A DNA stretch of 64,000 nt from contig JAAYBB010000045.1 in assembly GCA_012719075.1 (NCBI GenBank), positions 1 through 64,000 on the forward strand. Reading direction: 5' to 3'. The notes below the pieces were generated by a model. The model was not told the origin of the DNA, did not search any database, and saw only the letters and a list, made by a program, of their open reading frames with translations. Below are positions 11,615-48,417 of the stretch, piece by piece (the first letter of the stretch is position 1; every line of letters starts with the position of its first letter). The translations under genes and the position numbers were made by a program. The DNA is from Clostridiales bacterium (GTDB taxonomy: Bacteria; Bacillota; Clostridia; Oscillospirales; Feifaniaceae).

Positions 11615-13640
<2,026 letters not shown>

Positions 13641-13681
13641 ACAGGCGTCGCCCACCGGGCGCGCCAGGGGACATGGCATTC

Positions 13682-13711
13682 AAAAAAGCGGGCGTAGCGC
13701 CCGCTTTTTTG
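13682..13711 (+). terminator. groESL terminator copy 1
   Basis: aaaaaGCGGGCGtagCGCCCGCtttttt. Confidence 0.85.
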
Positions 13712-13823
13712 TGTCTTGCGTCTGTCGGCCCCCGGGGTACGCCTGCACCCTTGCCGCCGGCATGGGTGGAAACATGTGTTAAACAGGCGCCGCCCACCGG
13801 GTGCGCCAGGGGACATGGCATTC

Positions 13824-13853
13824 AAAAAAGCGGGCGTAGCGCCCGCTTTTTTT
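13824..13853 (+). terminator. groESL terminator copy 2
   Basis: Second copy of the same hairpin plus T-run. Confidence 0.85.
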
Positions 13854-14076
13854 GTGTCTTGCGTCTGTCGGCCCCCGGGGTACGTCTGCACCCTTGTCGC
13901 CGGCATGAGGGCCGGATGACCGCCAGGCCCGTGCGCCCGGACCGCTGGCGTGAGGCCGGAGCGTGAGGCTTTTTGAAAAGCGCCCTGCAGCCGGCCGCAC
14001 CGCCAGTCCGGTTTGCCCATCGCTCCCCGGCGGGGAGCCATCCCAGGGCCGCGATCAGCGCGGCTCCTTTTTCCCA

Positions 14077-14579
14077 ATTTCAATCCACTCCCTCCGTTAA
14101 GGGGGCGACATGCCTCGGTCCAAATTAACTGTATTAATATCCGATTTCAATCCACGCCCCCCGTGCGGGGAGCGACCCGCGACGAAAAGCACATCTGCCC
14201 CCTCCAGTTTATTTCAATCCCCGCACCCCGCGTGGGGTGCTACCGTTTAGGAAAACGCGCACAGTTTATCAGCGTAACGTTTCAATCCCCGTACTCCGCG
14301 TGGGGTGCGACCGCTGATAACAATATCTCCTGCGAGACTGGTTGTGTTTCAATCCACGCTCCCTATGTGGGGAGCGACCTCGTCGCCCTTCTCCCCATCA
14401 TCAACGTACCGCCGATTTCAATCCACGCTCCCCGTGTGAGCGACGTCCGCCCCGGGCATCCTACAGGGGACGCCCCAGCAATTCTAATCCCCGCACCCCG
14501 CGCGGGGTGCGACCGCCCAGCAGGGGGTGGGCCGCCTTCTGGCCGCGTTTCAATCCACGCGCCCAGCGTGAGGGCGTGT
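14077..14579 (-). CRISPR. degenerate orphan CRISPR array, type I-C-like repeats, 8 recognisable repeats
   Basis: 33-bp repeats (30 bp in one case) at 14077, 14144, 14211, 14279, 14346, 14415, 14481, 14547; period 66-69; unique spacers of 33-36 nt; consensus rtttcaatccacgcaccccgcgtggggtgcgac; reverse complement ends ATTGAAAY so crRNA would run on minus strand. Confidence 0.85.
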
Positions 14580-14802
14580 GCGCCAGGGCTGGACCCATGC
14601 GCCCGCGCCGGTGCACCGCCGCCTTGCGACGCGCGGCATATTGGCCTTTTTTAACCCCGTGTGCCGGCACCGCAGCTCGGTTTGCACATCCAGCGCAGGG
14701 CTTGTGCACCAGGGCCACACCCACACGCCTTCTGGCCGCGTTTCAATTCACGCGCCCAGCGTGGGGCGTGTGCGTCAGGGCTGGACCCATGCGCCCGCGC
14801 CG
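14533..14802. repeat. ~77-bp duplicated segment carrying a degenerate CRISPR-like repeat
   Basis: cgccttctggccgcgtttcaatYcacgcgcccagcgtg..gggcgtgtgcgYcagggctggacccatgcgcccgcgccg at 14533-14610 and 14726-14802. Confidence 0.85.
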
Positions 14803-19566: not shown

Positions 19567-19723
19567 TTTGTCGGTGGCCCCTTGGGCGTGCCCGGGATGA
19601 GTATCGGCTCGACCGACAGGCCCTTGAGTTGGGCGGGCCACCCGAGGCTGACGTCCGGCTTGCCCGATGGCCCCCAAGGATGGGCCGGCACCAGATAAAG
19701 CGTCGCCTTACTCGCCGTTTTTC

Positions 19724-19848
19724 CCTGGATGCGCGGCTTGCGCCGCGACACCCCCAGCAAACGGGCCAAGGCTTTGGCCCAAATGGGCACCCGCCACAGG
19801 GCGGGATGCCCTGTCGGTGCCGCTCAAATAAGCGCGCTTATTTGAGCG
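19724..19848. repeat. multi-hairpin structured intergenic element, copy 1
   Basis: Four consecutive hairpins alignable to 44561-44688 (CGCGGC/GCCGCG; GGGCCAA/TTGGCCC; CCCGCC/GGCGGG; CGCTCAAATAAGCG/CGCTTATTTGAGCG). Confidence 0.85.
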
Positions 19849-19881
19849 ACGGCTTCACGGACCCCCGGCGCCGCCAACGTA

Positions 19882-19913
19882 CAACAGGCCCCAAGGAGCC
19901 TTGGGGCCTGTTG
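19882..19913. terminator. bidirectional terminator-like hairpin
   Basis: CAACAGGCCCCAAGG-ag-CCTTGGGGCCTGTTG. Confidence 0.6.
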
Positions 19914-20172
19914 CTATTGACAGAGAAACGCGTGGAAAAATCAGTTGTCTGAGCACCCGAAGGGTGCGGGTCCTGATTTTTCCACGCGTCTCCATCCGAT
20001 CCGCTTCGCGTCTGGAAGTGGGGACGTGCCGCCCGGGGCAGGCCCCTTGCGCATGGGCCCCTACCCAAATAAAACTGGATTTGTCGCTCCTATTGAGCGG
20101 CAAGACCTGCTCCGGGGACTATCCGACGGCGCATGCGCCCTTCCCGGAACCCCCGGGGCCCCGACCCCTGTC

Positions 20173-23301: not shown

Positions 23302-23482
23302 GCTCTGTGGTCACCCCTTCGCTTTGGCGCAAATCCAGCTTATCATACCGCACGCAGGCCAAAAAGGCAAGGCGGGGGATGGGTCCGGGGGTCGCCCCCA
23401 CCCAGGTACAGGGGTGGGGGCGGTACAGAACGTGCCTGGTGTTACCGCATCGGGTAGCCGGTCTGCGCTGTCCGCAGGCCCA

Positions 23483-23785
23483 GTTTCCATCCTCGCATCC
23501 CGCGTGGGGTGCGACCGCTGCATGGATGGCAGCACGTGCCCGTATATACCGTTTCAATTCGCGCATCCCGCGTAGGGTACGACACGGCATAGATGGATGT
23601 CTTGCCGGCCGTAGTGGATTTCAATCCACGCACCCCGCGTGGGGTGCGACGCGGGCGTCCTCTCCGGGGCCATCGCGAGAAAGTTATTTCAATCCGCGCA
23701 CCCCGCATGGGGTGCGACCCGAACCCAGACAAACAGCGTCAGCGTCTGCCGTGCCCTCAATCTCCGCCCCTGTGAGGCGGGGGAG
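23483..23785 (-). CRISPR. second short orphan CRISPR array, type I-C-like
   Basis: 33-bp repeats at 23483, 23551, 23618, 23686 (period 67-68, spacers 34-35 nt); eroded fifth repeat in register at about 23754. Confidence 0.87.
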
Positions 23786-43728: not shown

Positions 43729-44370
43729 ATGGACAAAAACACCGCCAAAATGGGCGCCCTGAAGGTCAAGCGCGCCGCCAAGGCCCTGAAGGACAACAAC
43801 TTTGAGGTCATTGTCGTCGAGCGGCGCGACGAGGTCATCCCGGCGCTGCAGAAGCTGATTAAGCCGGAGGACACCGTCTCGGTGGGCGGCTCGATGACGC
43901 TGTTTGAAACCGGCGTGATCGACTGGCTGCGCACCTGCGGCTGCACGCTGTACGACCGCTACGCGCCCGGCCTCACGCCCGAGCAGATCGGCGAGGTCTT
44001 CCGCAAGGCCTTCACCTGCGACGTCTACCTCACCTCCACCAACGCGCTGACGCTGGATGGGGAGCTGGTCAACGTCGACGGCAACGGCAACCGCGTCGCG
44101 GCCATGATCTTCGGGCCGAAGAGCGTCGTGGTGGTGGCCGGCGCCAACAAGATCGTGCCCGACCTCGAGGCCGCCATGCTGCGCATCAACGAGTGCGCCG
44201 CCCCCGCCAACAACATCCGGCTGAACACCGGCAACCCCTGCACCGTCTCGGGCAGCTGCATGGACTGCGCCTCCAAGGGCCGCATCTGCCGCTACACCAC
44301 CGTGATCGGGCCGCAGAACAGCTCCGGCCGCATCAAGGTCATCCTGGTGGAGGAGGAGCTGGGGTACTAA
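43729..44370 (+). CDS. LUD-domain lactate utilization protein (LutC-like)
   Basis: SVGGSMTLFETGVIDWLR; TSTNALTLDGELVNVDGNGNRVAAMIFGPKSVVVVAG. Confidence 0.9.
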   Translation: MDKNTAKMGALKVKRAAKALKDNNFEVIVVERRDEVIPALQKLIKPEDTVSVGGSMTLFETGVIDWLRTCGCTLYDRYAPGLTPEQIGEVFRKAFTCDVYLTSTNALTLDGELVNVDGNGNRVAAMIFGPKSVVVVAGANKIVPDLEAAMLRINECAAPANNIRLNTGNPCTVSGSCMDCASKGRICRYTTVIGPQNSSGRIKVILVEEELGY

Positions 44371-44382
44371 GAGCTGAAGGCT

Positions 44383-44892
44383 CCAGGGGGTACCCGTACC
44401 CCCTGGATACGGGCGCCGAATCCGGACGGGTTCTCGCTCGATACCCCCCTCGCGTTCGCACAGCTCACGCGGTCGCCGGCGACCTGCGCCGGCGGGTCGG
44501 GGTGCCCTCCGGCGAAGTGAATTCGCCTCCGGGCAGATTTGGTCCGGGGGTACCCGTACCCCCTGGATACGGGCGCTAACGCGCCCGATACCCCCGGCAA
44601 ACGGGGCAAGGCTTTGCCCCGTTTGGATGATCGCCATAAGGCGATACGTCTTGGTGGTGTCGTTCAAATAAGTGCGCTTATTTGAACGAAGAGTTAGTCC
44701 AGGGGGGACTTTGTTCCCCCTAGATACGAAACCGCTTTGCGGTTTCGATACCCCCCTCGCGTTCGCACAGCTCACGCGGTCGCCGGCGAAGTGAATTCGC
44801 CTTCGGGCGGATTTGGTCCAGGGTACCCGCCACAGGACGGGATGCCTTTTGGGTGTCGTTTCAAAGTACGTGTACTTAATGATTAAAACGGC
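44383..44892. repeat. modular multi-hairpin mosaic element (modules A-B-A-C-A-B-C')
   Basis: tccaggggg..ccccctgg-atac-hairpin-gatac modules at 44383, 44543, 44698; repeated gatacccccctcgcgttcgcacagctcacgcggtcgccggcg at about 44440 and 44748; C module at 44591-44688 and eroded at 44820-44888. Confidence 0.88.
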
Positions 44893-44999
44893 TATTTATC
44901 TGGCTATTTATCTAATGAAGGAAATGACGGAATGGTATGGCGTCCCGGCGCCTTTACGGTCATTTCGCCCGTCATTTCGCCATGCTTGATTCACCGGTG

Positions 45000-48225: not shown

Positions 48226-48258
48226 AAAACCCGGGCGGTTTCGGCCGCCCGGGTTTTT
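48226..48258 (+). terminator. intra-operon terminator after livK
   Basis: AAAACCCGGGCGGtttcggCCGCCCGGGTTTTT. Confidence 0.85.
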
Positions 48259-48260
48259 AG

Positions 48261-48417
48261 TCCATATTGATTTCCCCCGTCCATTATTGATTGTTCCCAA
48301 GCCATCTTGATTGTTCCCGGTCCATCTTGATTTTCCCGGCCCATCTTGGATTTTCTCCGGTCTATCTTGATTTTTCCCCCGCATTTTCATGTCCCCCAGG
48401 TCCACTGTGTTTTTTCG
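48261..48417. repeat. ~20-bp degenerate minisatellite (about 7-8 units)
   Basis: tccatcttgattttcccgg-like units at 48261, 48280, 48302, 48321, 48340, 48361, 48382, 48401. Confidence 0.88.

Follow-up and report, generated by a model that had tools for sequence, protein, structure and literature searches.

Group IIC introns insert beside intrinsic terminator hairpins and are not known to duplicate the hairpin. Insertion sequences of the IS1182 family are reported to include members that target hairpins or palindromes and terminators; IS1272 and TnSha1 reportedly delete or replace the target hairpin instead of duplicating it, whilst pathway b, as proposed by Wan et al., has joining occur at a cruciform's 5' feet, with duplication of the stem-loop as the predicted result (PMC4923244, PMC5678879). 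A different kind of system is represented by BOX and RUP in Streptococcus pneumoniae. These are small, modular, folded intergenic repeats, found nested or clustered, for which mobilisation in trans has been suggested (PMC3049150). In this paper, we examine a hairpin-rich segment that, in our judgement, probably belongs to a family of small mobile repeats found across the order, built as a chain of four or five hairpins with near-invariant linkers, whose relatives would be mobilised by IS1182-type enzymes at terminators and whose copies here are older and lack the corresponding ends. The family appears to be undescribed, and not to be a known RNA; in the open-access literature, neither the motif string nor a description of repeats of this kind turned up (subscription journals fell outside this coverage).

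The window, by which we mean the whole 64,000-nucleotide stretch of DNA that was analysed, contains two copies of the segment that a first-pass annotation had aligned over about 125 nt (19724-19848 with 44561-44688), and direct comparison reproduces both the alignment and the four hairpins, in identical order in the two copies. Both are Type-A units on the + strand. Copy 1 (19723-19849) is truncated at its 5' side, where CCCTGG is all that is left of hairpin 0; copy 2 (44544-44689), which includes 44561-44688, is full-length and retains this fifth, 5' hairpin (CCGGGGGTACCCGTACCCCCTGG, 44544-44566). Hairpin 1 is CGCGGC-TTGC-GCCGCG in copy 1 (19732-19747) and CGGGCG-CTAACG-CGCCCG in copy 2 (44570-44587), its sequence being replaced throughout as the annotation had described, with the conserved linkers GGATAC and GATACCCCC to either side in copy 2. 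In hairpin 2 (GGGCCAA-GGCT-TTGGCCC at 19763-19780; CAAACGGGGCAA-GGCT-TTGCCCCGTTTG at 44598-44625) the pair C19766-G19777 is replaced by G44606-C44617. Hairpin 3 (GGGCA-CCCGCC-ACAG-GGCGGG-A-TGCCC at 19785-19811; ATCGCC-ATAA-GGCGAT at 44630-44645) shows the replaced pairs CCCGCC/GGCGGG versus ATCGCC/GGCGAT, and hairpin 4 (CGCTCAAATAAG-CGCG-CTTATTTGAGCG at 19821-19848; CGTTCAAATAAG-TGCG-CTTATTTGAACG at 44661-44688) a C-G pair replaced by T-A. The remaining compensatory changes that had been listed are present too.

At the second locus, several units form a mosaic of about 500 bp (44383-44890), all on the + strand and in the order B, A, B, deleted A. It comprises a Type-B unit (44383-44538: hairpin 0 CCAGGGGGTACCCGTACCCCCTGG, GGATAC-hairpin 1-GATACCCCCC, then the TCGCGTTCGC.. 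and CGGCGAAGTGAATTCGCC hairpins), copy 2, a second Type-B unit (44699-44822: CCAGGGGGGACTTTGTTCCCCCTAGATAC-hairpin 1-GATACCCCCC..) and a Type-A remnant (CCAGGGTACCCGCCACAGGACGGGATGCC..., 44822-44886) without hairpins 1 and 2. On the 3' side of copy 1 lies a remnant of a larger composite element (19858-20010, +), recognised from the module map and from matches to a 1.1-kb composite; it holds a GGACCCCCGGCGCC arm, a AACAGGCCCCAAG/CTTGGGGCCTGTT hairpin (19883-19912), the hp6 hairpin (19935-19982) and a tail motif (19990-20010). The neighbouring genes are convergent at both loci: an SLH/phosphodiester glycosidase gene and a nicotinate phosphoribosyltransferase gene at copy 1, a LUD-domain gene and an Mbeg1-like gene at copy 2. 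Other repeats are found elsewhere in the window. CRISPR-like arrays at 14074-14766 and 23478-23718 (GTTTCAATCCACGCACCCCGCGTGGGGTGCGAC, with a spacing of about 67 nt) have repeats only 65-90% identical to one another, unlike normal arrays, and their stems also seem rewritten; a 101-nt direct repeat occupies 13610-13852, its copies 97% identical and 142 nt apart; and tandem-like repeats of about 20 nt (CCATCTTGATTTTCCCGG) lie at 48249-48388, downstream of a periplasmic-binding-protein gene.

The annotation had proposed a search for further copies in the genome and its relatives, and many more than two exist. This genome (1.88 Mb in 92 contigs) holds about 20 further relatives; about 18 other matches reach E <= 1e-8 or better, and several are broken at contig ends, as is expected for repeats. 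In the module map, Type-A units run in the order hairpin 0 (CCAGGGGGTACCCGTACCCCCTGG), GGATAC-hairpin 1-GATACCCCCGG, hairpin 2, hairpin 3, TGTCGGTG and hairpin 4, and Type-B units have the hairpin 0 and hairpin 1 frame in common with them, followed by TCGCGTTCGC.. and GGCGAAGTGAATTCGCC hairpins. Outside the window, Type-A is nested in composites of about 0.5-1.1 kb made of further hairpins with inverted halves. The composites of about 0.9-1.1 kb on contigs C83 (5976-7029) and C59 (3289-4176) (loci L047 and L050) each form one long branched hairpin with ends AAGGTCGCGGCC, and parts of them recur at about 30 places in the genome. A sibling composite without Type-A (contig C59, 11275-11328) has an intact CCGGGGGGTATTGCGAGACCCCCCGG hairpin where others hold Type-A, so that Type-A seems to have inserted into the hairpin loop region there.

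Both window copies fold far more strongly than shuffled sequences, on either strand (z -4.6 to -7.7). The significance of covariation was tested on an alignment of 20 sequences with this genome left out, rather than on the two window copies. In this alignment the linkers CCCCCTGGATAC and GATACCCCC are invariant and the stems highly variable, with double changes in 21 of the 34 pairs; paired cells amount to 95.7%, against 74.3% when shuffled. The covariation score of 0.536 compares with 0.142 (sd 0.015) for shuffled sequences, and none of 500 shuffles reached it. As kinship of the sequences inflates the shuffle test, the more telling control is that of slid registers, in which the score always stays below 0.24. 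Hairpin 1 alone offers 55 distinct outer arms, which pair at 89% compared with 49% when the arms are shuffled (maximum 56%). The idea that folding is kept whilst stem sequence is replaced, drawn at first from two copies, therefore extends to copies from other organisms; the original observation was right yet understated. A covariance model built without this genome finds 44381-44534 (52.8 bits, E 4e-14), 44542-44645 (47 bits, E 2e-12), 44697-44814 (39.2 bits, E 4e-10) and 19721-19848 (17.6 bits, E 9e-4), all on the + strand, and it is on this model and the shared linkers that the family membership of the window copies rests. The consensus frame reads CCAGGGGG/CCCCCTGG, GGATAC-hairpin 1-GATACCCCC, hairpin 3, GG(T/G)CG(T/G)GG and hairpin 4.

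Strong covariation is what would be seen if the unit were a structured functional RNA, acting in 3'-UTRs or between cistrons on mRNA stability or termination and also spreading, with selection on the fold of the transcript; the first-pass annotation had named an RNA as one of two possibilities. A search of the window copies against Rfam 15, however, gave no family at gathering score or at lax thresholds, and 44340-44900 gave nothing credible at E up to 10. The annotation had recognised no named family; there is none in Rfam, and a tie to a known insertion-element family exists only loosely, in that the relatives carry IS1182-type ends. In a strand-neutral scan of 305 distinct hairpins, mismatches comprise 38 A.C and 8 G.T, and so do not show the G.U excess expected of + strand RNA; G.U intermediates are few even in an RNAalifold-guided alignment. 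The scan is no clean test, as several of the A.C cells are a single conserved C.A near the apex of hairpin 1, present in two families (L113/L145 and L072/L115) whose stems are otherwise unrelated; on the other strand this would be a G.T wobble. The mismatch types give no support for selection on a + strand RNA. Near-perfect stems with few G.T intermediates, rewritten whole, could also arise if folding were a functionless by-product of palindrome-restoring repair (intrastrand template switching). Such an origin is compatible with a mobile element, but repair alone leaves unexplained the conservation of linkers and hairpin order across families, and we think it unlikely.

Hairpin 2 is without counterpart in the relatives read, and a first DNA pattern anchored on it found nothing outside this genome. 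Short matches to a 551-nt query, run against 295 genomes of the order, fell at hairpin 0 in other families, where the same frame could be read out with unrelated stems. The pattern CCCCCTGGATAC-N6-36-GATACCCCC occurs in 10 of the 295 genomes, with no matches to a reversed-pattern control, and in GTDB species genomes, among the matches listed, it is found almost only in Oscillospiraceae-like genomes; the carriers are at least Angelakisella massiliensis (with many copies), Flavonifractor, Pseudoflavonifractor, Agathobaculum, Butyricicoccus, Sporobacter and several MAGs. With the covariance model, 18/295 genomes of the order are positive and the occurrence is patchy: this genome's own family has seven further members, and neither the model nor a 124-nt consensus matched any of them. 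Plasmid and phage nucleotide searches were negative. A Type-A element does lie at 145-284 of an IMG/VR contig from a putative phage (L246), a possible vehicle between hosts. In A. massiliensis (L214, L185 and L199) there are tandem arrays of up to ten element units of about 150 nt; in the inner units hairpin 4 has no 3' arm and the tail is absent, with the junction CATGTCC|CTCTGAGTGTGCC, and the last unit alone is complete.

Units lie near or just past stop codons, many of them starting 0-5 nt after, and are mostly co-oriented with the upstream gene; the left neighbour is on the same strand at 70 of the 101 other loci with one called, by gene calls that are crude. Between purH and purD, this genome and several of the Flavonifractor group carry copies that start 0-4 nt, or a few bases more, past the stop codon of purH; these reflect one old insertion, shared and retained, or else several insertions at a single site. 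Such positions, and the fact that the unit remains within the transcript after insertion, speak for a functional RNA. Against this, the co-orientation is explained by terminator targeting (see below), the unit is missing from most genomes of the order, including seven members of the same family, and the tandem arrays resemble selfish DNA more. A selected transcript fold is, in our view, quite unlikely. The conserved folding most likely reflects constraint at the level of DNA, be it hairpin or cruciform recognition or palindrome-restoring repair, possibly with a 3'-UTR role in addition.

Evidence for mobility comes from the relatives. In Angelakisella and its relatives, the unit sits inside an element of about 200 nt (182-209 nt) with imperfect inverted-repeat ends of about 16 nt (in Angelakisella and related MAGs, left GAGCGTGTCGAAAAA, right TTTTTC(T/G)ACAGTCTG). 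The ends are flanked by direct repeats of 12-38 bp, exact or nearly so, each a complete stem-loop, giving the layout upstream gene sequence, stem-loop, element, stem-loop and, as a rule, a T-rich stretch; that is, the elements are co-oriented at intrinsic terminators. The whole terminator stem-loop is duplicated at 15 of the 24 copies with junctions set by their ends, or 15 of the 18 assessable single copies once six with another array unit or a contig end at the left are set aside. In A. massiliensis, the occupied rny site reads GGGACCGCTTCGGCGGTCCCTT-element-GGGACCGCTTCGGCGGTCCCTT-TTTTT, whilst the orthologous site in a MAG of a sister species has a single AAAGGACCGCTTCGGCGATCCTTTTT terminator and no element. 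Both IS1182-type ends and a hairpin-length target change are seen among the relatives tested for them (Angelakisella, bin54, CASFXA and G087). With ends that match those of IS1182-family IS, duplication of whole terminators and an empty site in a sister species, the relatives are, to judge from their sequences, IS1182-type miniature elements that duplicate terminator hairpins. An IS1182-family transposase acting in trans would cut the extruded terminator hairpin at its feet, and the hairpin would then be copied during gap repair. A complete terminator would be rebuilt downstream and insertion would thus do little harm, a plausible low-harm route for a mobile element. The annotation's other suggestion, a structure-recognised DNA repeat, comes close to what these inverted-repeat ends and terminator-hairpin duplications show, but an RNA does not, the relatives being transposing elements.

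The reported preference of IS1182-family members for palindromes and terminators led us to examine their transposases (NF033551). Two transposase remnants, in an Agathobaculum-group genome and the bin54 MAG, share the right terminus of the elements (CTCGACAGGCTGA and CTGACAGTCTGA) with a hairpin adjoining. IS1182 copies with matching ends occur on a Subdoligranulum plasmid (3' part only), a T. melissae (Thermocaproicibacter) plasmid, a viral contig and in E. faecium. Like ends of the Oscillospiraceae and viral-contig copies agree with those of the elements at 11-15 of 16 positions (13-15 of 16 in the best pairs), and those of the E. faecium copy at 14/16 on the right and only 10/16 on the left. 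The E. faecium copy has an exact 27-bp terminator-hairpin duplication on both flanks; the Thermocaproicibacter and viral-contig copies lie between two different hairpins, so that duplication does not accompany every IS1182 copy. The present element copies look like natural products of pathway b of Wan et al. Within Angelakisella, an IS1182-like IS present in eight copies was rejected as direct partner, its ends being different. No intact IS1182 copy with the exact ends of the elements was found there, and the exact 3' end of the elements was found on no non-element copy apart from one chance coding match.

The window copies begin at CCAGGGGG and stop after hairpin 4. No IS1182-type ends (TGTCGAAAAA-type) were seen at these or at the other copies tested in this genome, no flanking terminator-hairpin direct repeat at the two window loci and ten other loci of the genome, and no IS1182 transposase (PF13751, PF05598) in the draft assembly, which is 92.8% complete and has contigs broken at repeats. 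The mechanism for the window copies is therefore carried over from the relatives and could differ from theirs. We infer that the window copies are degenerate, mosaic, older members of the family, now frozen or spreading at gene 3' ends. The core is kept even where IS1182 ends are missing, for example at purH-purD, a pattern not expected of a mere passenger. It is possible, although doubtful, that the core chain of hairpins is a module under selection of its own and recognised by its structure, with stems free and linkers fixed, which has IS1182-type ends in some lineages only and elsewhere, this genome included, moves or persists by another, as yet undescribed, structure-dependent route into the hairpin loops of other repeats and directly past stop codons.

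On the reading that we prefer, a mobile repeat family with IS1182-mobilised relatives, strong covariation of the kind usually taken as evidence of RNA is tied to mobile DNA repeats, which calls for caution in covariation-based RNA discovery. The relatives provide many clean natural cases of target duplication of an entire terminator hairpin, and with them a direct test of the structure-dependent transposition model for the IS1182 family, in repeats carried by several gut Oscillospirales genera.

Compared with known systems, the repeats resemble REP/BIME sequences as mosaics of palindromes at gene 3' ends, and their intergenic chains could be taken for BIME-like repeats that a RAYT transposase (HUH, Y1) moves by acting on hairpins in single-stranded DNA. 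No Y1 transposase was found in this genome, however, although the controls were detected. Inverted-repeat ends and target duplications of hairpin length, both present in the relatives, are not known to result from IS200/IS605-type transposition; spread by RAYT is very improbable. Group IIC introns differ in that no intron or reverse-transcriptase features are seen in the elements. The likeness to BOX and RUP is that of small, modular, strongly folded intergenic repeats that nest and cluster, but here the stems are rewritten and the linkers fixed across families, and the target duplications are entire terminators; no sequence relation between them is known. Among the closest systems are the IS1182-family IS (IS1272, TnSha1 and the E. 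faecium IS), together with the miniature derivatives expected of them, whose inverted-repeat ends CAGnCTGTnGAAAAA match those of the relatives and whose terminator or palindrome target is, as in the relatives, chosen by structure. The window copies differ from these in being without ends altogether, and the elements in having no transposase gene, a length of about 200 nt and a conserved hairpin-chain core.
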